Shown: positions 3,620-48,454 of the stretch, in pieces
Layout: the number at the start of each line of letters is the position of its first letter
How positions within the stretch are numbered: the first letter of the stretch is position 1
Virus record (IMG/VR): IMGVR_UViG_3300027749_000004
Span: 1 to 59,154 of that record
DNA length: 59,154 bases
From: a virus
Reading direction: 5' to 3' (one strand)
Translations under genes and position numbers: made by a program
The notes under the pieces: model-generated
What the model was told of the DNA's origin: nothing
Database searches by the model: none
The model's input: only the letters and a program-made list of their open reading frames with translations

Positions 3620-4282
3620 CTATCTTACTGGATAACGAGCTTGCGGAGTACGATACATATCTTGGCGGTTTTTGCCCTCTGCAAACATGATAAGCAGGGT
3701 TATCGCCTCTTCGTAGCGCTTCTGGTATCCAGCTAGGACGTCAGCCTCGCCCTTCATGAAGGTACCGGCTTCCAACAGCGAACCGTAAAGTAGGGCGGAG
3801 TCAAAGTTGTCCCCAAGCCATGAGGTACCTGCGGTCACGATGGACGGCGGATAATAGAAATAGTGCAGCTCGCCCGTGTAGGCTTGGTCAGGCGTAGGGC
3901 CTAGCAGAAATGAGGTAGCATCCGACATCGCATAGTGGGTCGGCTTCCCCGTGGCTGTAGGGATAGGAAACGCCTCACGGATGAAGTTCACATCCTTGTT
4001 AAGCAAGAAGTCATGCTGCCCTGTGGTGGGGTCGATGACGGCAAACTCAAAGGTAGCCAGCCAGTCTGCGGGTGTGGATAAGGCCTTGTTATTTGCCACC
4101 ATAGTGATGGTAGCACTCTTACGAAGGTTCAGGAGCTGAACGGCGCTATAGATGCGCTGCTCAGCTTCTTGGATGAACGTATTGATCTGCTGTGTAGACG
4201 TGAGCCCGCCAGTTCCCGGTGTAGTTGGGAAGTCGTTTTCGACGTAAGCCTGTATTGTCGAAACGAGCGTGGCGTAGTTCAT
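3620..4282 (-). CDS. Phage adaptor protein (SU10 adaptor-like)
   Basis: A 220-aa protein starting MNYATLVSTIQAYVEND, with the conserved pattern FIQEAEQRIYSAVQLLNLRK and a middle PTHYAM...LLGPTPDQAYT segment, then a helical C-terminus (GEADVLAGYQKRYEEAITLL). This layout matches head-to-tail adaptor proteins of SU10-like podoviruses, which form a ring beneath the portal and hold fibre or nozzle subunits. Its position near the other neck genes agrees. Confidence 0.7.
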   Translation of the reverse strand: MNYATLVSTIQAYVENDFPTTPGTGGLTSTQQINTFIQEAEQRIYSAVQLLNLRKSATITMVANNKALSTPADWLATFEFAVIDPTTGQHDFLLNKDVNFIREAFPIPTATGKPTHYAMSDATSFLLGPTPDQAYTGELHYFYYPPSIVTAGTSWLGDNFDSALLYGSLLEAGTFMKGEADVLAGYQKRYEEAITLLIMFAEGKNRQDMYRTPQARYPVR

Positions 4283-4285
4283 GTC

Positions 4286-4483
4286 TTAGGCCATCCGTGT
4301 GCTGGAATTGGTACCCTTAGTAGCCGCACCCGTCCCACGAGTTTTCATCGTTTGGGTGTTGGCAACCTTGGCTGGATAGCCGCCTACCTCTGGGATAGGC
4401 ACAGGAGAAGGCTGCTTGCGCCGTGAGGGCAGCGGGTTCTCGGTGATCGAGTTATACAGCTTGCTATAATCGAGATCAGACAT
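4286..4483 (-). CDS. Small Pro/Thr-rich protein of unknown function
   Basis: A 65-aa protein with a GAAGGGC ribosome site and no recognised domain. It is polar, basic and Pro-rich (LPSRRKQPSPVPIPEVGGYP), and probably disordered. It lies in a tight run of late genes with spacers of a few bases, so it is likely co-expressed with the virion proteins. Confidence 0.6.
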   Translation of the reverse strand: MSDLDYSKLYNSITENPLPSRRKQPSPVPIPEVGGYPAKVANTQTMKTRGTGAATKGTNSSTRMA

Positions 4484-4485
4484 GA

Positions 4486-4719
4486 CTAGCCCTTCATCTT
4501 CTGATTGGCGACCTTAGCAAGGCCACGGCCCATAGACAGCATGTTGGCGTTGGTCTTGCCACCCTTAGCCATCTTCTTGACCTTGCCACCCTTGGCAATA
4601 GTCGTCAGAGGCTTACCGGGATGATCCTTGCGCTCATGCTTGTGCATGGCATCATTAATCATCTTCTTGTCCTGTTTCATATCGACTTTCATGTCTTCTT
4701 TAGCATCGCTCTTAGCCAT
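4486..4719 (-). CDS. Small Lys/Gly-rich protein with AKGG motifs
   Basis: A 77-aa, strongly basic protein with an AGGAG ribosome site. The first half is a charged Lys/Asp/Met helix (KEDMKVDMKQDKKMINDAMH). The second half has IAKGGKVKKMAKGGKT, a motif shared with the products at 6163, 6483 and 7173. Function unknown; the charge suggests DNA contact or a virion-packaged peptide. Confidence 0.65.
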   Translation of the reverse strand: MAKSDAKEDMKVDMKQDKKMINDAMHKHERKDHPGKPLTTIAKGGKVKKMAKGGKTNANMLSMGRGLAKVANQKMKG

Positions 4720-4730
4720 TACACGGTCTC

Positions 4731-5168
4731 CTAGGTTATGTTCACGGTGACGGTGCCAACGGCACCTTCTCCTACTAGCGTATTTGGAAGATCAGGAAAA
4801 GCCAAAGGATTAAACAACCCCACAGGGTTCCAGCCCCACTGGATAATACGGCTACCATCTGAAGGGTATCCGTAGGCCAGCTTAGCATTGGGGTTTGGCG
4901 GACTATTCGTGAAGATTTGCAGACCTGTTGGTCCTGACTGGTAATAGCTAGTGTCCGCACGGGGGTCACGAATGGCTTGGGGGTCATTGACCGGGTACAT
5001 CCCTAGCTGCAGTTGCGGCTGATCTGGCTCCCAACAGGTTGGGCATACGAGGATATTTGTAACCTTGGTCTTGATGACCAATGAACGTAGACGCTTCAGC
5101 GGATAGCGGAAACCACAACGATCACACTCGGAGATCGCTTTCTTGCCAGAGGCAAACTTTGTTGGCAT
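4731..5168 (-). CDS. Zinc-ribbon virion-region protein
   Basis: A 145-aa protein with a four-Cys zinc ribbon near the N-terminus (ECDRCGFRYP and VCPTCWEPDQPQ). The Pro/Gly-rich C-terminal half contains YYQSGPTGLQIF and WGWNPVG and looks like a beta structure. A strong AGGAGGG site precedes the ATG. Proteins of this shape recur in the neck/structural blocks of marine podoviruses. Structural or assembly role inferred from context. Confidence 0.65.
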   Translation of the reverse strand: MPTKFASGKKAISECDRCGFRYPLKRLRSLVIKTKVTNILVCPTCWEPDQPQLQLGMYPVNDPQAIRDPRADTSYYQSGPTGLQIFTNSPPNPNAKLAYGYPSDGSRIIQWGWNPVGLFNPLAFPDLPNTLVGEGAVGTVTVNIT

Positions 5169-5177
5169 GCCACCCTC

Positions 5178-5891
5178 CTAGTACAAGGAGATGCGAGGGG
5201 CGATACGCAAAGATGCTTTATCGCGGTCCTCGTCAGCAGCCTGCTGCCACGCCTCGTCGTACATGGCCTTCAGCATCTGGGTGCGGTTCAGCCCATCAGG
5301 GAGCTTCAAGGACAGATAGTAGGCCAGTCCAGCGACCATGCACGGAAGGAAGCGGAAGGGTATGTCCTGCGTTGTCACACCCGTGCCAGCATCTTGGATG
5401 CGGCGCAGACGCCAGTAGACCAGCGTGTAATAGCTGCTCTGGTTCGGGGTAGGCCAGACCACCACGTTGGGGGAAGCCACACCCGTGGTCGGGTAGGTAG
5501 CGCCGCTCTGACGGTTGATCCAAATTTGGATAGGGCGACCCTGCGCCGTCTTGTTGGGGATCGACGAGTAGGTGTCGATGCTGATCCTACTGATATTGAT
5601 GTCAACTTGGCTGGTCGTGCCGGGGCTTGTACGTACGACGTGATCGATAAGGTCGATGGTGTCGATTGGCAGCGTGTAGGTAGCCTGCCCCTGCACCAAG
5701 GGGATCGACCCGGACTCGATGGTCCACAGGTTGACACCCCTGTTAGCCCATTCGATGGTCAGGAGGTTGAGGCTACGGCGAGCAGTCTTCAGGTCATAAC
5801 CAGTCCGGAGCTCGGCACCGCAACGCTCGAACGCTTCCTCAACAAGCTCGTTGAGGTTCAGATTGAACGTGCTAGTGCCACTCGTGGTCAC
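5178..5891 (-). CDS. Putative head-tail connector/neck structural protein
   Basis: A 237-aa protein with a GTG start overlapping the previous stop as GTGA. The N-terminus (LVEEAFERCGAELRTGYDLK, TARRSLNLLTIEWANRGVNL) is a widely conserved pattern in phage neck proteins. A beta-rich middle and a helical C-terminus (LYDEAW-type) follow. It is adjacent to the zinc-ribbon and adaptor genes. Probably a tail-tubular A-like or adaptor-type subunit in the head-tail interface; exact equivalent uncertain. Confidence 0.65.
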   Translation of the reverse strand: MTTSGTSTFNLNLNELVEEAFERCGAELRTGYDLKTARRSLNLLTIEWANRGVNLWTIESGSIPLVQGQATYTLPIDTIDLIDHVVRTSPGTTSQVDINISRISIDTYSSIPNKTAQGRPIQIWINRQSGATYPTTGVASPNVVVWPTPNQSSYYTLVYWRLRRIQDAGTGVTTQDIPFRFLPCMVAGLAYYLSLKLPDGLNRTQMLKAMYDEAWQQAADEDRDKASLRIAPRISLY

Positions 5892-6166
5892 TTCTTAAAG
5901 CCTTTCAGGACCTCAGCGAACCGTGCCCGCTGTCCTAGTTTACCCGGTTTCTTAGCTGCCGCTGCCAGTTTCTTAGCAGGGATAGGCTCGCCCTTCTTGG
6001 CACCAAGAGCAGACCGAAGAGCTCCGGGCTTCTTGATGGCACCCTTAATCCAGTTCCCACCTTTAGCAAAGCGAGTGCTATCGGTGGGATCAGGAGCCTG
6101 ACTAACAACCGTGTTCCGGGGCTTTTTCTTAGGGTTGATATTCCCCATTCCCCGAGAGGCTATCAT
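5888..6166 (-). CDS. Small basic protein with FAKGG motif
   Basis: A 92-aa, very basic protein. The ATG at 6166 overlaps the upstream stop as ATGA; an internal ATG at 6148 sits directly after CGGGGA and is less well placed. It carries FAKGGNWIKGAIKKPGALR and KLAAAAKKPGKLGQRARFAE, patterns I have seen in uncharacterised environmental phage proteins. It belongs to a run of Lys-rich small genes, with a DNA-binding or internal virion role possible but unproven. Confidence 0.65.
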   Translation of the reverse strand: MIASRGMGNINPKKKPRNTVVSQAPDPTDSTRFAKGGNWIKGAIKKPGALRSALGAKKGEPIPAKKLAAAAKKPGKLGQRARFAEVLKGFKK

Positions 6167-6483
6167 ACAAATCGCCCTTTAGTTTTGCCCTTGGTGCAGC
6201 AACCATCAGCACGGCTGGAGGCTGAAGAGACAGAGCCACCTTTGGCCATCTTCTTTACCCGCCCACCGCGCTTCATACCATCGGTGTCAAGTGTCTTGTC
6301 GCCAGCTTTGCTAAGGCTCGTGCTGCCGGTACCGGTAGGAGTGATGATGGGTTTCTTCTTCTTAGCGGGGTCCAAAAGCTCCGGAAGAGCCCCCATAAGC
6401 CCAGACTCGCTCTGGTGCATGATGGCTTGGGGGATGATACCCGCAAAAGGAGCTAACCCGCCTAGATCATCTTTGAGGGACAT
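6163..6483 (-). CDS. AKGG-motif protein with Cys/basic C-terminal tail (paralogue 1)
   Basis: A 106-aa protein starting MSLKDDLGGLAPFAGIIPQA. The ATG overlaps the upstream stop as TAATG. The C-terminal half carries MKRGGRVKKMAKGGSVSS followed by RADGCCTKGKTKGRFV. That tail is shared with the next two AKGG genes, so these are fused or duplicated modules with different N-termini. Unknown function; probably virion-associated. Confidence 0.65.
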   Translation of the reverse strand: MSLKDDLGGLAPFAGIIPQAIMHQSESGLMGALPELLDPAKKKKPIITPTGTGSTSLSKAGDKTLDTDGMKRGGRVKKMAKGGSVSSASSRADGCCTKGKTKGRFV

Positions 6484-6917
6484 TACACAAACTTTCCTTT
6501 GGTCTTGCCCTTGGCTTCGACACCGCCGCCACGAGCGTAGCATCCGGCTTTACCGCCCATAGCCATCTTTTTGGCGGAGCCACCGCGCTTCATACCGCTA
6601 GGCTTATCTTCTTGGCCTTTGTCGATACCCAGATGAGAGTTACCAGCAACGGCACGTGTTGGACCCTTACTATCGCGGCTACCGCCTGCGGGACCCATCA
6701 TCTTACCAGCGCCACCCTTCTTGAGGCCCATAGACCCCATATCTTTAGAAGAGGGCATTGTCTTGGTGGTGCCGCCCTTCTTCATGCCGCCCATAGCGCC
6801 CATAGGAGAGCCGCCCATAGGAGAGCCGCCCATAGCGTCAGAGGAGGGAGAAGACGCGGCCTTCCTAGCCATCATGGCCATCATGACCTTCTTAGGAGAA
6901 ATCTTAGGCTTTTTCAT
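6483..6917 (-). CDS. Met/Gly-rich AKGG-motif protein with basic C-terminal tail (paralogue 2)
   Basis: A 144-aa, low-complexity protein with repeated MGGSPMGGSPMG and MKKGG/LKKGG units, then MKRGGSAKKMAMGGKAGCYA and a GKTKGKFV end. The tail matches the products at 6163 and 7173. Internal nucleotide repeats (around 6800-6835) code for the MGGSP units. No enzymatic motif. The sequence looks disordered and strongly cationic. Confidence 0.65.
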   Translation of the reverse strand: MKKPKISPKKVMMAMMARKAASSPSSDAMGGSPMGGSPMGAMGGMKKGGTTKTMPSSKDMGSMGLKKGGAGKMMGPAGGSRDSKGPTRAVAGNSHLGIDKGQEDKPSGMKRGGSAKKMAMGGKAGCYARGGGVEAKGKTKGKFV

Positions 6918-6918
6918 C

Positions 6919-7173
6919 TTAGCAATCCCATGCTCTCAAAGACTTATTGATCCGGCTATTCGGATCATTAGCGGTCTTGGCACTCGTTAACTTCTTCTTC
7001 ATACCTGACATTCTGGCGCAGAAGGACTTCTTACGGGAGCCACCCTCAGGCTGTGGAGCCTTCAGCCCCGGCTTACCGGGGTTGGCCTTATTGTAAGAAG
7101 CTCGACCCTTGGCGTTCAAGCCGCCCTTAGGGTTCTTCCCTTCCTTGCGCGTCCAAGCAGGAGACTTGGCCAT
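6919..7173 (-). CDS. DUF6321-like protein
   Basis: An 84-aa protein that reads MAKSPAWTRKEGKNPKGGLN near the start and ends NDPNSRINKSLRAWDC. The layout closely fits what I know as DUF6321, a compact basic domain seen in phages. It contains KKSFCARMSGMKKK, which may be nucleic-acid-facing. The ATG overlaps the upstream stop as TAATG. The biochemical role is unknown. Confidence 0.75.
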   Translation of the reverse strand: MAKSPAWTRKEGKNPKGGLNAKGRASYNKANPGKPGLKAPQPEGGSRKKSFCARMSGMKKKLTSAKTANDPNSRINKSLRAWDC

Positions 7174-7637
7174 TAGACAATCTTAGCCTTCGTGCGACCC
7201 CGCTGGGCGCAACCATCACCACGGCTAGCTGCACTGGGCGAACCCTTGGCCTTAGGCAGTTTGATAGCCCGCTTAACAGTGGTCTTCATCGTCGTGCCCT
7301 TGGAGCCGCCAGCGGAGATAGCCCCACCCTTAGCGTACTTCTTGGCTTTGACTGGACCACCCTTGGCGCGGTTAGGACCGCGTACCATATCCTGCCTGCG
7401 CATCATTGCTGCCTGCTTCATTTGAGCGGGTGACGGGCCTGCAGGGCGAGCGGGTGCTGCGGCATCCTGTCCAGCACCCCGTCCAGCACCCTGCATCTGC
7501 GCCGCAGACTGCATAGCCGCAGCAATACGAGGGTCCATCGCACCTGCTGAAGGAACTGCTGCACGTTGCGCTGCAGTGACGGGTTGGGGCGCTATTTGCA
7601 CTTGCCGCCCATCGTTAGGCATCACTGGAGAGGTCAT
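7173..7637 (-). CDS. AKGG-motif protein with Cys/basic C-terminal tail (paralogue 3)
   Basis: A 154-aa protein whose start MTSPVMPNDGRQ follows GAAGGAAG with good spacing; the longer frame to 7700 overlaps the holin gene. The N-terminal half is Ala/Gln/Pro-rich (QPVTAAQRAAVPSAGA). The C-terminal half has AKGGPVKAKKYAKGGAIS and ends SRGDGCAQRGRTKAKIV, the same tail as the genes at 6163 and 6483. Likely virion-associated; function unknown. Confidence 0.65.
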   Translation of the reverse strand: MTSPVMPNDGRQVQIAPQPVTAAQRAAVPSAGAMDPRIAAAMQSAAQMQGAGRGAGQDAAAPARPAGPSPAQMKQAAMMRRQDMVRGPNRAKGGPVKAKKYAKGGAISAGGSKGTTMKTTVKRAIKLPKAKGSPSAASRGDGCAQRGRTKAKIV

Positions 7638-8808: not shown

Positions 8809-9720
8809 TTACGAACCGCCGGGAGAACCGAACATACCCAGAGGATCGGACCAGCCGAAGCTATAACGCTCACGGGCCTTATACCGAACATTTCCGGTGT
8901 CGAAGTCGCCGTCCATGCCAGTCGACAATGGAGTACGAACAAAGTGCTTCATACCATTAGGAACGTCCGTGGTCAGGTACCAAGAGTTGGTGTCGGTGAT
9001 GAAGTGGTTCACCGCATAACCCTCAGGGATCGACCCGTTGTTCTTCAGGGCGTTGATGTCGTTGTCCGTGGTACCAACGCGCAGGCTGGTTTCCAGCAAG
9101 CGGGTGGCGACAAACATCAGCGCGGGTGGGATGATGAGCTTCTTGGGCTTTGCAGCGATCAAGAGCGAACGCTCGTCAGTCCATGCTGCGATCTGGATCA
9201 CAGCGGCTTCCAGCGAAGTCTCGTTCAGGTCGGCCACAGTGGCTTGCGTGTTTGAGTTAACGTCGCCAGAGACCAGCGGGTGCGCGGTGCTGAAGAGTGC
9301 CTGACCGTCGCCGCCAACAAAAGTAGAGTTGAAGCCGTTGTTCAGAACTGCAGCAGCCTTGACCTGCTTGGTATAGGACATGGCACGAGCCAGCGCCTTG
9401 GTGTAGCGAGCCGAGAGAGAGTCATAGAGGTTGTCCTCGATGGCTTCTTCGGTCAGGCTGAAGCCTAGAGCGATGGTTTCGTGGTTGTATCGAGCGGTGA
9501 ATGCTTCTTGCCCGTTATCATAGGCAATAGCACCACCTTCGGTCTTGACCGGAGCAGCCGAGAAGCCCGACAGCTTGGTCTCTTCTTCGAAGGAACGCTC
9601 AGAGCTTTCGATGTCGAAAAGTTCTTTGTGTTCCTCGCCGTAGCGATTGTACTCCAGACCGAACAAAGCGTTCAGGCCGGGGAGCAGTTCCTTCAGAAGT
9701 TGTGCGCGTGAAATAGCCAT
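8809..9720 (-). CDS. Major capsid protein
   Basis: A 303-aa protein starting MAISRAQLLKELLPGLNALF, with EYNRYGEEHKELFDIESSER and GFSLTEEAIEDNLYDSLSAR. These are signatures of Mu gpT-like major head subunits with the HK97 fold. The length agrees with that family. It follows the scaffold gene and two head genes and is followed by a terminator, as expected for the most abundant late product. A GGGAG site lies about 10 nt upstream. Confidence 0.88.
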   Translation of the reverse strand: MAISRAQLLKELLPGLNALFGLEYNRYGEEHKELFDIESSERSFEEETKLSGFSAAPVKTEGGAIAYDNGQEAFTARYNHETIALGFSLTEEAIEDNLYDSLSARYTKALARAMSYTKQVKAAAVLNNGFNSTFVGGDGQALFSTAHPLVSGDVNSNTQATVADLNETSLEAAVIQIAAWTDERSLLIAAKPKKLIIPPALMFVATRLLETSLRVGTTDNDINALKNNGSIPEGYAVNHFITDTNSWYLTTDVPNGMKHFVRTPLSTGMDGDFDTGNVRYKARERYSFGWSDPLGMFGSPGGS

Positions 9721-41719: not shown

Positions 41720-44700
41720 CTATTCTTCTTCCTCGTAGTTGCCCGACACTGCAGGCATGAGGTAGGGCGCATTCTTGCGGGTCATGGCCACACCGTTAAC
41801 CGTGTTCATGTGCTTCTGGTAGTAGCTACGCTGTGATTGCATCAACGTATCAGCACTGATTTGGAACGCTGGGATCGGGTAGCGCTTATTGAACTCGAGC
41901 ATCTTTTGATAGGCCCTACGAGCTCTGGCGGGGTCTAGGTGATCCGCCATCAACGTATGCTTATTGTACTCGTCTAACAGCTTCCCCCGCTCTGCATCGA
42001 TGTGCTTCTTTTGGTTGGTAACCGCAGACGAGCGCTGCTGCTGCTCTGAGACATCCATAGGCTGGAAGCCCACAACCTGCCCAAGCAGAGGCACAAGACC
42101 GATATCCCCGGCCTTCACTACCTTATCGCCACCACGGGTCTCTGCGCCTTCCGTAGCGAGCCGGTAAGCCGTCAGAGGCTTAGAGACACCGGCAGGGAGC
42201 ATCTGCTCGAGACCACGCTGCACTTCTCCATTGGCCATATCCTCGATACCAGAGAGGAAGGTCGTACCGACACTTACCCCTGCGATGTTAGAGACAACAG
42301 CATTCATTGCTGTCTCCTCCCAGTTACGCCCTTCCTTAGGAGCACGGAACCACATGCCGTTGAAGGATGTGTGTGAGCCGAAGTTAAGGCCCGAACCCTC
42401 AGATAGAAGACCGTTAGCAAGCGCATCCGCATAGGAGTGCTCTTTGCCATCTGCGCCGGGGAAGGTCATCGCTCCAAAGTGCTGAGGCAGGAACTTGTTC
42501 CTGAAGATATAGTCTGCGTTGTACTTCATGACGTCTTGGTTCTGATCGTCATTCTGCGAGTTGGCTTTCAACCACGCACTAGCCCCGGCCATAGCAAGCC
42601 CATAGAGCGGCATGCCGCGTAGCCCGTGGAACAGACCGCCCATACCCAGCACACCGATAAGCTCACCCATAGCCCCTACATCACCCTTGGTCGCAGCGGC
42701 AAAATTCTCGATGAAGAACTGTGTCTGCTTAGCTGGGTACATCTTGAACTGGAACGCAGCGGTAACGAGGTCATTAGCCTTAGCGGCACGAGGTACTTCC
42801 CACTCGTTGTGTGTCCCTAGCGCATCTGCAGTGAGCCTAGAAGCAGCCTCAATGGACGCATTGAAGTCACCCGTCTTTTTGTAGTGCAGCTCGAACGCAG
42901 CCATGGCTGACATCTCGCGGCTGACATACTCAGACGCATTGAACATACCCGTTAGAGCATTGTAGGCAGTATCAAGCCCCTTGCGGAGACCCTTCTCCAC
43001 TGCTGTCTTAGGGGTAGCCTTAGGACCACTTCCCAAGATTTCCTTGGTTAGCGTACCGAACACGCCGCGAGCATCAAGCGCCGTATGGGCTCTCTTGAGC
43101 AGGGGGTTGTTCATGAGCTGAGAACCACCGACCGTAGGGAACTGAAACACCGTGTTGCCCTGACTATCGACCGTCTTCCACTTACCCACAGACTGAAGCA
43201 CGTTGGTGTACTTCCCCAGCGCTGCTACAGCAGCAGGGCCACCGTAGAACCGGGAGAGCCTTGGAAGCACTCGAATAGGGATACCTGTGTACTGGGTAGC
43301 AGCCGTGGCTCCGCTGGTGAGGTACATCATATAGGCACCACGCTTCAGGAAGTTGACGAGCGAGCTCGCCTTCTTGGGGTTCATCAACCCATCCACGCGC
43401 AGAGCCATCTCGTTATAGACAGCATCCATCTTCAGCTGCTCAGTAGGCGAGAACGGTAGCTCATTACCCTCTGGTGCTTGGTGGATAAGGTCCTTAGCCT
43501 CGCTCAGCTTGCCCTCGATTAGAGGCTTGAAGTGCATCTTGGAGATTTGATTATTGTACATATTCGAGGAGCTCTCGAACGTGCGTAGGCTATCCATGCT
43601 GAAGCCGCCGACCCCCTTGGCATGGATGAACTGCTTGCGTAGGGACTGCTCAGGCAGCGACGTAAGGAACACTTGATAGAACTGGTCCTTGAGCTCTTTG
43701 GCTTGCGCCGTTGACAGCCCCTTAGCCCCTTCCTCAACGTTGTTGTCCACCACCTCAAAGAACCGCGTCAGCATCGCTGAGGTCTCGTTTATACGCGGGT
43801 TTAGGTTATCAGCATTGACGCCCCAGTCGAACGCCTCCCGGCTCTCTGGGTTAAGGCCTAGGTCCCGAGCAGCAGCATTCTTTGCATTGAGTAGCTGTTC
43901 CAACGTATCGAAACGATGGAACTCACCGGCAAACTTCCCGGCTTCTGGCTTGATACGTAGGTAGTAGTCCCCATCCCGCTTAAAGGGTGAGTACATATCA
44001 GGCAGGAGGTCTGCAGGAATATGCTTAAAGGGGTTGCTCTCAGCCTTAGCCGTTTCCAGCGACACGCGGATTTCAGCCATGATGGCTTTGCGAGCCTTGT
44101 CACTCATCTGCTGTCGAGCGAGGTTGCCATTCAGCACAGCCCGCATGAGGTCATACTTGTCGCGGTGGTACTGGTTGATGTCCTTGAACAGAGCATGGCC
44201 GTCACGCTGCTCGCCCAGCTGCTCCCATAGATCATAGACCTCTTTGAACTGTTGGAGGCGTGTCTTTAGCTCTTCGCCAATCTCCTCACGGTCGGTGGAA
44301 CTTAGGTTCATGTCCGTGAGCTTGTCGCTCAGTACCCTCAAAGAGGCATCGTTACGGATAGCCTCGCGAAGGGTTGGGTAGGCCGTAGGGTCCACCTGAT
44401 GCAGACGTGCAAGAGCTTGGATTTTAGCCAACGTCTCCTGCCCGTACTTGTCGTTAAAATTCTTGAGCCGCTCTTTGATAGCCCCATCACGACGCTGGAA
44501 GCTATCGCGCTGCGCTAACCACTCCGACACCAGTTTGTCTACCGCTGCTATAGCAGGCACACGGTCCTTCAAATAGTTAACGATCATAGATGTCGGCAGC
44601 TTAGGCAGCCAGAACTGCAGCTGCTTAGTGCTGACCCGCGTAAAAAAGTCCGAAGGGATTAGCTTGCCGGGATCACGAGCCTTGATGGTACCAGATAGAC

Positions 44701-47700
44701 CTTCTGTAGCCGTATCTGTGCTTCTGGCGCTGTTGGCCATCTTAAGGCTACGCTCGACCGTCTTGAGAGCCTCTGAGCTCTCCTTGTCGGCAGTCTTCGC
44801 ACTAGCGATAGCCTCGCTAACCTCCTTGCTCGCCGTTGCACCGTCTTTGGTCTTGACGGTATGCTCAGTCCAAGTAGCGAGGTCCTTTTTCTTCATGGAC
44901 AGCAGCTCTTCCGAGACCCGTAGCAACTCAGATAAGGCAGTATCATCCTTCTTAGCTAGGCCTAGGAACTCGCCCATGGTGCGGACAAACTGCTTCCAGA
45001 CCGAAACAACACCCTTGTAAGGAATAGTATCCAACCACTCTTGCATTTTACGATCAGATAGACCCCAAGCAACGAGCTCATGGATATCTGCAAGGGCATT
45101 ATTGTTCCCCTCGATACCAAGCATTTGCTTTTCAAAAGGTGTGAGCTCCGCCCCACTGTCTCGGCGCTCCTTAATATGCGCTATAACCACATTCCCGAGT
45201 TTTGTTAGTTTGTCGTAAATCTTACCCGCTTGAGTATCTGCGTGCTTTACATATCGCCCAACATTAAGGGTTCCCTGCGTCACAGCATGGATGAATTCAT
45301 GTAGCACCCATGTATAGGAGGTGCCTGCATACCCTGTGACATCACTACCATTTATCCGGGTAGAGACTTTACGGTAGTCCTCTCTAGGTACGAGGTTATA
45401 CCCTCGTGATCTAGGAGCACGAGACTTATCCCCTATATGGTTGATCTTGAAGTCGAACTCGACACCCATTTCATTTAGGCTACGCATGAGCTTTGCTACC
45501 CTAGTAGCTACCTCTTTGCGGAACCCATCAGGGGCATTAGTCACAAGCCACCCAGCGACCTCAAGAGAGCTCTTACCCTCTAGGTCATGCTCAATTCGCT
45601 TAGACACTGCTTCGATAGGGTCTCCGTCTGGCGTTGTCTCCTCGGCATCCACAGGGCCCTTCTCAGCAGAAGCCTTAGCCTTCGCTTCCTCTGCGGCCTT
45701 CTTCTCGGCCTCAGCGGCCTCACGCGCTACCCGTAGAGCTTCTCTCTTCTCTGCAAGCTCTCGCTGCTGACGTTCATTCTCTTCGGCGGCACGAGCCGTA
45801 CGTTCGGCCCGCTCCCTGTCTAGGCTAGTCTGCCGCTCTACAGCCTTCAGCGCCTCATCTCCCTCTCGACGTACGGTCTTAATAAAGGCCTCTGGTTTGG
45901 TGAGTTTTAGGCGGTTTTCGAAAGTCTTAATCTTATCTTCAGGCACACCCTTAGCGCGGTAGTCATCGATTACCTTTTGCACATCGTCACGGGTGATTGC
46001 TGGGGGCTCGACAGGTACCTCTACAGGGGCCTCAGCCTTCTTGCCCTTCTTACCCTTTGGAGCGGTTACGATAGGCTCAGCAGCGACAGGTTCAGCAGCT
46101 ACAGGTTCAGCGGTAGGTGCAGTGATGGGGTCGGTGGTAGACCCCCGCTGTGCGTTCTCACCAAAAGAAGCATCCATGCCTTTGATAGCACGGGTTTGCA
46201 GCTCCTCGCGTGTCAGCGCGGGTTCGGTCTTCAGTAGAGCCTGATAGAATTTCTCTTTTGCGGGGTAGACGAACTGGCCCTTTTCAAGGGCGTAGGCTTT
46301 GTCGATGGGGGTGCCGTTAGGAGGGTTCCCCTCAGCAACGCTCTTTGCCTCCCGCTCCGCCTCCCGCTGCGCATAGAACGCTTCGCGCTCCTGCATGAAG
46401 GGGGAGTCCGCTATCACCTTCCCCTTAGGGTCAAGAATGCCCTGCTTCTTTAGGGTCGCAATCGCGGTCTTGTCGTTCTTGTCGAGAGCCTTATCAAGGA
46501 GGTTTTCTACTACCTTTATCCTATTAGCGTTTAGCCCAGTCTCTTCCACAGGAGCAGGGGTAGGAGCAGGAGGAGCAGGCTCAGCGGCAGGGTCGAGAGC
46601 AGCGACAGGCTCAGCGACAGGAGCAGGCTCAGGAGCACGAACAGGCTCAGCAACAGGAGCTGGTTCTGTCTTGATAGGCGGGAACTCAGCCTCCTTAGCG
46701 ACCTCTACAGGAGGAATGACTTCCTTAGGGATCGATACGGGCGAGATCGGTTCGGTGGTAGTCTCAGGTTCGACGATAGGCTCAGCCTTGAACGCCTCTG
46801 CACGAGCGTCTTGGAATGCCTTTCGTAGCGCTTCTGCGGGTGAGTATGTCAAAGGGTCGTTGACATGCAGGTCTGTTGCGGCTTCCCGAATATCGTTAGG
46901 TAGCGCTTTCTTCTTGAACCCAAACTCAGTTGCCAGCGGTGCAAAGACCTTAGGGTCAGCAAAGGCCGTCCGAACCCGCTGCCGTGCCGTAGTTACCTCT
47001 GCCTTAGTAGGTTCAACTTTTAATGGACTGTCGACCGGTCCCGCTCGTTCAGGAGCAGCCCCAAGGTCCCCGCCAACAGGTTCCACTCCTGCGTCTCTAG
47101 CCCCTCCAGTATCGGTGGCAGCTTCGGGTTCTCCTCCAAGCCCGCTATCACGCGGAACGCTAGGCTCAGTTCCTCGTAGGTGAGGTTCACCAATATCTGG
47201 GGCATTAGGGCCTGTCTCCTTGATGCGTTCTTCAGTCGGTATAGAGGCCTTAAACATTGCGTGGTCGCGAGCCAGCGAGGGAGCCATACCCTGCTTCTGG
47301 GCCTCCGCAAGCGTAGCGGCGTACACGATAGGGTCTACACCTGCAGGGATATCTTCCGCAATGCCGCTAAGAGGCTTTTGCTCGACCTCTGGCTCTGGCT
47401 TCGGTTCGGGTCCATGTCCACGACCGTGCATGACCCCAAAGCCTGCACCAAGAGCGCCACCCATAATACCTTGTTGTACAGCTTCCGACGCTACGCCTTC
47501 AAACGTAGGGGTATTGAACCCGGCTCGCTGCATAGCGATGTTCTCGGCCAACTTGGTCTGACCGGATAGACCACCCATGATGGCGGCATCTTTGGCGAAG
47601 CCTTTTGCGGCGCGAGCTACGGGTCCTGTTTCAGTTGTCAGCTTGGTGACGTTTCCAGCGATTTCTTTAGTAGCATTTTCAGCCGCAGCCTTGGCAGCAC

Positions 47701-48454
47701 CTTCCTCGATGACTTCACCGACGAGCTTACGCTCTAGTGCCTTAGCTGCAGAGGCTGGAAGGCCGACCTCACCCGCGATAGCCCCGAGCGCCCCGCTAAG
47801 AGCGATCTGATCTACGTTAGGACCAGCATAGCTTTGAGCCTTCTGGGCCTTCTCCTCAGCGACTTCTGGAGCCACCTTGGCATCCAGCAGGGCTTGTTTG
47901 ACCTTCTCGTAGATAGCGCCCTTGGTACCACCAATGCTCTGTGCGGCCATCACGCCAGCCATAGGAGCAGCTGCAGCGAGCCTCGCTGCTATAGTAGCCT
48001 CAGTAGCTGCGCCGCCCGTCAGGACACCAGCACCAATCGCAGGAGCAATACCGCCAACGAGCTCTGCAGCCTTACCCAGAGGGTCGTGTGCCACAGTGGA
48101 TAGGAAGGCCTTGGTCTCTGCGCCTAGACCCTTACCCTTAGCGGCAGCCGTGGTAGCTGCGTTCTGCTCCTCAAGTTGCTTCTGTCCCTTGGACGTCTTT
48201 TCACCGATCCCAGCCTCTAGGCCTGCTAGACCTTGCGAGACAGGGTTATTGGCACCGAAGACGTTAGAGATACCACGCACACTGCCAACCGCGCTCTGAG
48301 CGAGTTTCAGAGGGGCATCGGTAATTTTCGTCGGGTACTGCAGGAGCTTCTTGGTGTCTAAGCCTCCCCGCTGGAGGGTAGCTAGGATTTCATTTGGGTG
48401 CATGCCATCAGGAATGTTCGTGATGATCTGCCCATTAGGCATGCGCAGGTCCAT
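41720..48454 (-). CDS. Giant polyvalent virion/ejection protein with HEFIH motif
   Basis: A 2244-aa protein, last gene of the late arm. The N-terminal 350 residues are Ala/Gly-rich with glycine-zipper-like helices (GGIAPAIGAGVLTGGAATEA) that could insert in membranes. Residues about 350-720 are Pro/Glu/Val-rich and disordered, then a Lys/Glu/Ala coiled coil follows. A zincin motif HEFIH is at 1052-1056 (codons 45287-45301). The C-terminal third has long helices and SLRKQFIHAKGVGGFSMDSL, resembling the PLxRFG-type region of polyvalent phage proteins. Probably packaged and ejected with the DNA; no polymerase motifs found. Confidence 0.75.
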   Translation of the reverse strand: MDLRMPNGQIITNIPDGMHPNEILATLQRGGLDTKKLLQYPTKITDAPLKLAQSAVGSVRGISNVFGANNPVSQGLAGLEAGIGEKTSKGQKQLEEQNAATTAAAKGKGLGAETKAFLSTVAHDPLGKAAELVGGIAPAIGAGVLTGGAATEATIAARLAAAAPMAGVMAAQSIGGTKGAIYEKVKQALLDAKVAPEVAEEKAQKAQSYAGPNVDQIALSGALGAIAGEVGLPASAAKALERKLVGEVIEEGAAKAAAENATKEIAGNVTKLTTETGPVARAAKGFAKDAAIMGGLSGQTKLAENIAMQRAGFNTPTFEGVASEAVQQGIMGGALGAGFGVMHGRGHGPEPKPEPEVEQKPLSGIAEDIPAGVDPIVYAATLAEAQKQGMAPSLARDHAMFKASIPTEERIKETGPNAPDIGEPHLRGTEPSVPRDSGLGGEPEAATDTGGARDAGVEPVGGDLGAAPERAGPVDSPLKVEPTKAEVTTARQRVRTAFADPKVFAPLATEFGFKKKALPNDIREAATDLHVNDPLTYSPAEALRKAFQDARAEAFKAEPIVEPETTTEPISPVSIPKEVIPPVEVAKEAEFPPIKTEPAPVAEPVRAPEPAPVAEPVAALDPAAEPAPPAPTPAPVEETGLNANRIKVVENLLDKALDKNDKTAIATLKKQGILDPKGKVIADSPFMQEREAFYAQREAEREAKSVAEGNPPNGTPIDKAYALEKGQFVYPAKEKFYQALLKTEPALTREELQTRAIKGMDASFGENAQRGSTTDPITAPTAEPVAAEPVAAEPIVTAPKGKKGKKAEAPVEVPVEPPAITRDDVQKVIDDYRAKGVPEDKIKTFENRLKLTKPEAFIKTVRREGDEALKAVERQTSLDRERAERTARAAEENERQQRELAEKREALRVAREAAEAEKKAAEEAKAKASAEKGPVDAEETTPDGDPIEAVSKRIEHDLEGKSSLEVAGWLVTNAPDGFRKEVATRVAKLMRSLNEMGVEFDFKINHIGDKSRAPRSRGYNLVPREDYRKVSTRINGSDVTGYAGTSYTWVLHEFIHAVTQGTLNVGRYVKHADTQAGKIYDKLTKLGNVVIAHIKERRDSGAELTPFEKQMLGIEGNNNALADIHELVAWGLSDRKMQEWLDTIPYKGVVSVWKQFVRTMGEFLGLAKKDDTALSELLRVSEELLSMKKKDLATWTEHTVKTKDGATASKEVSEAIASAKTADKESSEALKTVERSLKMANSARSTDTATEGLSGTIKARDPGKLIPSDFFTRVSTKQLQFWLPKLPTSMIVNYLKDRVPAIAAVDKLVSEWLAQRDSFQRRDGAIKERLKNFNDKYGQETLAKIQALARLHQVDPTAYPTLREAIRNDASLRVLSDKLTDMNLSSTDREEIGEELKTRLQQFKEVYDLWEQLGEQRDGHALFKDINQYHRDKYDLMRAVLNGNLARQQMSDKARKAIMAEIRVSLETAKAESNPFKHIPADLLPDMYSPFKRDGDYYLRIKPEAGKFAGEFHRFDTLEQLLNAKNAAARDLGLNPESREAFDWGVNADNLNPRINETSAMLTRFFEVVDNNVEEGAKGLSTAQAKELKDQFYQVFLTSLPEQSLRKQFIHAKGVGGFSMDSLRTFESSSNMYNNQISKMHFKPLIEGKLSEAKDLIHQAPEGNELPFSPTEQLKMDAVYNEMALRVDGLMNPKKASSLVNFLKRGAYMMYLTSGATAATQYTGIPIRVLPRLSRFYGGPAAVAALGKYTNVLQSVGKWKTVDSQGNTVFQFPTVGGSQLMNNPLLKRAHTALDARGVFGTLTKEILGSGPKATPKTAVEKGLRKGLDTAYNALTGMFNASEYVSREMSAMAAFELHYKKTGDFNASIEAASRLTADALGTHNEWEVPRAAKANDLVTAAFQFKMYPAKQTQFFIENFAAATKGDVGAMGELIGVLGMGGLFHGLRGMPLYGLAMAGASAWLKANSQNDDQNQDVMKYNADYIFRNKFLPQHFGAMTFPGADGKEHSYADALANGLLSEGSGLNFGSHTSFNGMWFRAPKEGRNWEETAMNAVVSNIAGVSVGTTFLSGIEDMANGEVQRGLEQMLPAGVSKPLTAYRLATEGAETRGGDKVVKAGDIGLVPLLGQVVGFQPMDVSEQQQRSSAVTNQKKHIDAERGKLLDEYNKHTLMADHLDPARARRAYQKMLEFNKRYPIPAFQISADTLMQSQRSYYQKHMNTVNGVAMTRKNAPYLMPAVSGNYEEEE

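Follow-up and report, generated by a model that had tools for sequence, protein, structure and literature searches.

Small genes with a common C-terminus in the head-gene cluster

The virus record IMGVR_UViG_3300027749_000004 (IMG/VR; 59,154 bases, analysed over its full length and referred to below as the window) carries a cluster of small genes beside its head genes, and the products of three of these (tail proteins A, B and C, Table 1) end in a common peptide which we call the GKTKG tail. A first-pass annotation had described the cluster as a modular set of cationic virion-region proteins with a shared tail, unrelated N-termini and a repeated AKGG motif; this observation is confirmed, and is more extensive than had been noticed. 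Six of sixteen columns of the tail are identical in all three proteins, a result matched by none of 100,000 per-sequence shuffles, and the N-termini are indeed unrelated. An AKGG-like motif had been assigned to at least five proteins, and the exact form is present in four of the five named: tail protein A and the 77-residue protein contain it twice each, and tail protein C and the 92-residue basic protein once each, but tail protein B has variants only (MAMGG, MKRGG, MKKGG). The six exact occurrences compare with a shuffle mean of 0.28, and 0 of 2000 shuffles reached six. Two features are additional to that annotation, namely a DUF6321 gene lying between the tail genes and a second conserved tail (RGTGAATKG...RMA) on the 65-residue protein.

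The cluster and the head genes all lie on the minus strand. Terminase and portal come first, then a counterpart of the gene that is annotated GroES in isolates, a scaffold-like gene, two unknowns and the major capsid gene, followed by genes for decoration-like proteins, the tail-protein cluster and two SU10-type adaptors. As regards the first-pass suggestion that the small proteins could be processed, a scan of ten head genes revealed no separate prohead protease. Two further C-termini in the cluster recur elsewhere. The KKPGKLGQRARFA..L...KK segment of the basic protein is also C-terminal in gp44 of HTVC027P, and is possibly a further shared C-terminal module. The 77-residue protein ends TNANMLSMGRGLAKVANQKMKG, relatives show GKTNEEMLKLGRGLAKVANQKRG or, in one case, GVTGASMRSMGRNLARARNQKPGSK, and this is a recurrent C-terminal segment of that gene slot.

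Table 1. Genes and encoded tails of the cluster and its edges, in window coordinates
Feature	Coordinates	Strand	Remarks
Major capsid protein, Mu gpT-like, phrog_371	8809..9720	-	upstream edge of tail slot
Tail protein A, 154 amino acids (aa), isoelectric point (pI) 11.8	7173..7637	-	ends RGDGCAQRGRTKAKIV
Tail of protein A	7176-7235	-	SAASRGDGCAQRGRTKAKIV
DUF6321 protein, 84 aa	6919..7173	-	PF19846, E 3.2e-20; ends LRAWDC
Tail protein B, 144 aa, pI 10.6	6483..6917	-	Gly/Met/Lys-rich; ends RGGGVEAKGKTKGKFV
Tail of protein B	6486-6557	-	GGKAGCYARGGGVEAKGKTKGKFV
Tail protein C, 106 aa, pI 9.9	6163..6483	-	ends RADGCCTKGKTKGRFV
Tail of protein C	6166-6255	-	KKMAKGGSVSSASSRADGCCTKGKTKGRFV, canonical form
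Basic protein, 92 aa	5888..6166	-	without GKTKG tail; C-terminal KKPGKLGQRARFA..L...KK segment
SU10-type adaptor	5178..5891	-	PF24175, E 2.3e-12; downstream edge of main tail slot
AKGG protein, 77 aa	4486..4719	-	contains HKHERKDHPGKPLTT (HKHER segment); C-terminus GRGLAKVANQ-type
65-aa protein, second tail type	4286..4483	-	ends RGTGAATKGTNSSTRMA; tail encoded about 4289-4339
Second SU10-type adaptor	3620..4282	-	PF24175, E 4.7e-25; downstream edge of RGTGAATKG slot

Conservation, register and modularity of the two tails

Alignments identify the AKGG part and the tail as one unit, consisting of an invariant GG, then a Ser-rich linker, then a core. The core peptide is RADG[C/I]A.[RK]GKT[KR]G[KR].[V/C], preceded by the Gly/Ser-rich linker, and the invariant residues of the tail are G, G, D, G, G, K and T. 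Pfam has no family for it, and the first-pass annotation likewise had no family name for the tail.

The tail is conserved in related phages. We fetched 80 relatives by their capsid protein alone, and all 31 that reach the adaptor gene carry at least one tail-bearing open reading frame (ORF). A profile built from 57 tails matched at least 330 ORFs in at least 156 loci of IMG/VR, and among the matches listed the tail is nearly confined to the slot between the major capsid gene and the SU10-type adaptor, with 1–5 copies per phage. A scan of IMG/VR for the DNA pattern of DG[IC]A.[KR]GKT[KR]G, which is blind to neighbouring genes, returned at least 120 stretches, and those among the matches listed show the capsid/DUF6321/adaptor neighbourhood with few exceptions. 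In 85,000 bacterial and archaeal genomes the motif occurs in 19 stretches, five of which have this phage neighbourhood, and in 16 fuller virus records one short region holds nearly all tail matches. Among named phages, a 308-residue protein of Planktothrix phage Pag-Yong1 ends GRDGCAKRGRTKGRFI. A tblastn search of a phage collection with the short tails or the tagged proteins returned nothing, possibly through filtering of such queries, and the motif strings of the tails were not found in the one open-access PMC library searched.

The position of the tail relative to the stop codon is also conserved. The GKTKG core ends exactly 3 residues before the stop in 182 of 286 cases, and in most others at 0 residues, or at 10–15 residues with a GG..C ending; the large minority of tails that run about 10 residues past GKT[KR]G end in GG..C or CGGGM.K. 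Amino-acid identity of the tails is 0.75 within genomes and 0.72 between them, but for synonymous codons the corresponding fractions of identity are only 0.49 and 0.43, which indicates selection at the protein level. The differing synonymous codons exclude recent gene conversion or DNA copying as the source of tail identity.

The 65-residue protein of the window, which ends TRGTGAATKGTNSSTRMA, carries a form of a second tail with the consensus RGxGAAx[RK]G..F.GVF. In about 60 relatives the same slot has the consensus KTSGIKIRGTGAATKGVMARGPMA, and Pelagibacter phage HTVC023P has two proteins with the RGxGAA tag (gp32, ending RGVGAAIRGHKFIGVK, and gp51, ending RGGGAAVRGMGFKGVF). A motif-only scan of IMG/VR for RG.GAA.[RK]G..F.G gave at least 120 stretches, compared to 15 in the whole of IMG/VR for the reversed motif. 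Among the matches listed, the motif lies 5–8 residues from the stop in 127 of 127 ORFs (exactly 7 in 115), 111 of 112 loci belong to the head-gene lineage of the window, and the neighbouring genes include the portal (upstream in 36 of 75, downstream in 18 of 75), terminase and adaptors. In sister phages RGxGAA proteins fill the very slot that is occupied by GKTKG proteins in the window. In a tree of adaptor proteins the GKTKG phages form one clade (support 0.92–0.98), whose sister clade contains the phages with RGxGAA in the slot; a single outlier without a GKTKG label falls inside the GKTKG clade.

In comparison to the tails, the remainder of each protein is highly variable. Among the matches listed, 246 N-termini of at least 30 residues form 94 single-linkage groups under one tail profile, although low-complexity chaining may inflate the largest of these groups. 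Individual segments also occur both with and without the tail. The HKHER segment is followed by a full GKTKG tail in two relatives and lacks one in the 77-residue protein of the window. Similarly DUF6321, which occupies the same slot in nearly all relatives, stands alone in the window and is fused to the tail in seven relatives, so that this family (PF19846) is a neighbour and occasional carrier of the tail and not the tail itself. The window copy is a full DUF6321 (73 bits compared to a Pfam cut-off of 28.5, positions 1–72 of 72); its AlphaFold2 (AF2) model is helical, with a predicted local distance difference test (pLDDT) score of 73, and a Foldseek search of the PDB with this model gave no match. 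DUF6321 is present in 540 phage records, mostly of cyanophages and pelagiphages, and its alignment ends in an invariant Cys, like many tail variants; no paper on the family was found in the open-access library searched.

A third N-terminal segment, the KKQH domain, is found under both tags: several relatives, L096 and L107 among them, have it in front of a GKTKG tail, whereas in L242 (E 2.7e-21) the tail behind it is of the RGxGAA type. There is no copy in the window. The domain (phrog_16759, phrog_22033, phrog_25121) corresponds to the 58-residue PHIKZ165.1 of phiKZ, which ends without either tail, and to the N-terminus of proteins annotated as virion structural proteins in the jumbo phages GAP32, CBB and PBECO4. 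PHIKZ165.1 and, probably, CBB_322 share the domain with many tail-bearing relatives, and match them through the N-terminal domain only. The mass-spectrometry table of CBB virions lists CBB_322 among the structural proteins, at 43.57% coverage from 30 peptides (PMC5259590); from its number this protein is probably FDG95_gp322 of the sequence record. The first-pass suggestion that proteins of this kind are packaged in the capsid is therefore plausible on indirect evidence: virion incorporation is supported for one cargo domain, but the support does not extend to the tail.

Possible functions of the tails

We consider it somewhat probable that the tails are clade-specific docking or targeting tags, read at the C-terminus and carried by disordered cargo. 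The fixed distance to the stop, the invariant non-basic residues, the clade-specific versions and the confinement to head genes together fit a peptide whose free C-terminus is read by a head component particular to the lineage. On this reading the small, mostly disordered proteins of the head operon would each finish with a Gly/Ser-rich linker and, behind it, a short peptide at a fixed distance from the C-terminus, and a head-assembly component of the same lineage (the portal, the capsid protein or the scaffold) would bind that peptide, thereby recruiting quickly changing cargo to the head or to the interior of the prohead. The action of the tail would then resemble that of the capsid-targeting sequence (CTS) on internal proteins of T4, or that of encapsulin cargo-loading peptides. 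A receptor, entry of the proteins into the virion and a function for the cargo are inferred parts of this model. The first-pass interpretation is partly supported: the description as a modular set of cationic virion-region proteins is borne out by the unrelated N-termini, the conserved tail and its confinement to the head-gene cluster of relatives.

The likeness to the T4 CTS lies in one short conserved sequence on otherwise diverse proteins, several per phage. The T4 sequence is N-terminal and is removed by the prohead protease, whereas the tag described here stands at the other end of the protein, in a register that takes in the free C-terminus, and the scanned head genes include no separate protease. 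In T4 the internal proteins are diverse cargo of which the targeting sequence alone is conserved, and it is through this sequence that they reach the prohead core (PMC3012670). Encapsulin cargo-loading peptides are short and C-terminal, and serve several cargoes per shell, with genes near that of the HK97-fold shell protein (PMC7355545). They resemble the tails in being conserved peptides behind a flexible linker, encoded downstream of a capsid gene; however the shell gene in our case sits in a tailed-phage genome that also encodes a portal, a terminase and adaptors, and the putative cargo is mostly small and disordered rather than enzymatic. Encapsulin peptides bind a pocket on the shell lumen, while the capsid protein is here one of several candidate binding partners. 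The T7 proteins gp6.7 and gp7.3 are also small, basic, low-complexity products of a morphogenesis region. They were rejected as sequence relatives, as the profiles of both tails failed to match them (best E 0.23).

Several results weigh against the tails being head-targeting tags. The CBB_322 evidence concerns an N-terminal domain, not a tail, in a distant jumbo phage, and we found no virion proteomics for the window phage or for a tagged close relative. AF2 predicts the tail by itself to be disordered, and likewise tail protein C (pLDDT 60, predicted template modelling score 0.15), and a sequence search of the PDB gave no match for either tail. Alignment of the GKTKG and RGxGAA profiles by hhalign is weak (P 4.7e-4, probability 32%), hence we propose a similar use for the two tails and not common descent. 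Finally, both tags are absent from the head-cluster genes examined in the isolates HTVC027P, CRP-901 and RW; the lineage can therefore dispense with the tag, which is no general requirement for building a head.

The tail could instead be a structural anchor, with small head-completion or decoration proteins sitting outside the head or at the neck and a C-terminal strand docking on the capsid or connector. The location of the tail slot between the capsid or decoration gene and the adaptor genes is compatible with this, and RGxGAA genes often adjoin the portal. However the N-termini are highly variable, low in Cys, Trp and His and apparently not folded decoration domains, while copy number ranges from 1 to 5 and the identity of the proteins differs between close relatives; we therefore regard an anchor as unlikely.

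Another possibility, raised in the first-pass annotation as DNA binding, is that these are cationic internal proteins which condense DNA, the tail being a plain basic DNA-binding segment. The three tail proteins are certainly basic (pI 9.9–11.8, net charge +9 to +22), but the invariant residues are not just basic and include Gly, Asp and Thr, the register of the tail to the free C-terminus is fixed, and the division into clade-dependent tag types would not be needed for DNA binding. This proposal is thus not specifically supported, and seems to us quite improbable.

We think it very improbable that the proteins are simply tandem paralogues whose disordered N-termini have diverged past recognition, leaving the tail as the slowest-changing part rather than as a transferable module. 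Tails are slightly more alike within a phage than between phages (0.751 compared to 0.723 identity; 0 of 500 permutations), as paralogy would predict, but this excess is small, DUF6321 and HKHER occur both with and without the tail, and KKQH occurs with a different one. The weakest proposal, and one largely refuted, is that conservation lies partly at the nucleotide level because translation of neighbouring genes is coupled and the ribosome-binding site of one gene falls within the 3' end of the gene before it: start codons do often overlap the stop (TAATG or ATGA) and the last Gly codon, alone among the tag glycines, is biased (GGA or GGG in 45–54%, compared to 6–38% at the others), but Shine-Dalgarno (SD)-like matches in GKTKG ends equal the codon-usage expectation (0.59 compared to 0.587; the values for RGxGAA are 0.72 and 0.59), and the conserved motif begins about 25 residues further upstream and varies freely at synonymous positions.

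A broader version of the targeting model, which we put forward tentatively and think doubtful as a whole, is a C-terminal sorting code common to the lineage, in which different slots and clades would use different words to load fast-changing small cargo, possibly with counter-defence functions, into the prohead. The candidate words would be GKTKG..V, GKTKG plus GG..C, RGxGAAxRG..F.GVF, RGTGAATKG..ARGPMA and GR.LA..NQ.

Two features lie elsewhere in the window. A 2244-residue protein (41720-48454, minus strand) matches phrog_10089, 'DarB-like antirestriction', over its C-terminal half (E 2.8e-47); DarB of P1 is a head-packaged protein, and this protein may therefore likewise be virion cargo. 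At the left end, two repetitive low-complexity ORFs on the plus strand (243-764 and 819-1271) are possibly antisense to a repeat-containing gene that crosses the edge.

If the tails are indeed head-loading tags, proteins which this lineage may carry into its hosts could be recognised from sequence by a simple rule. Most tagged proteins are currently labelled 'hypothetical proteins', and the lineage is widespread and aquatic, with isolates that include Pelagibacter phage HTVC023P. The tails would also represent a C-terminal counterpart of the T4 CTS, and would allow an evolutionary comparison with the cargo peptides of encapsulins.

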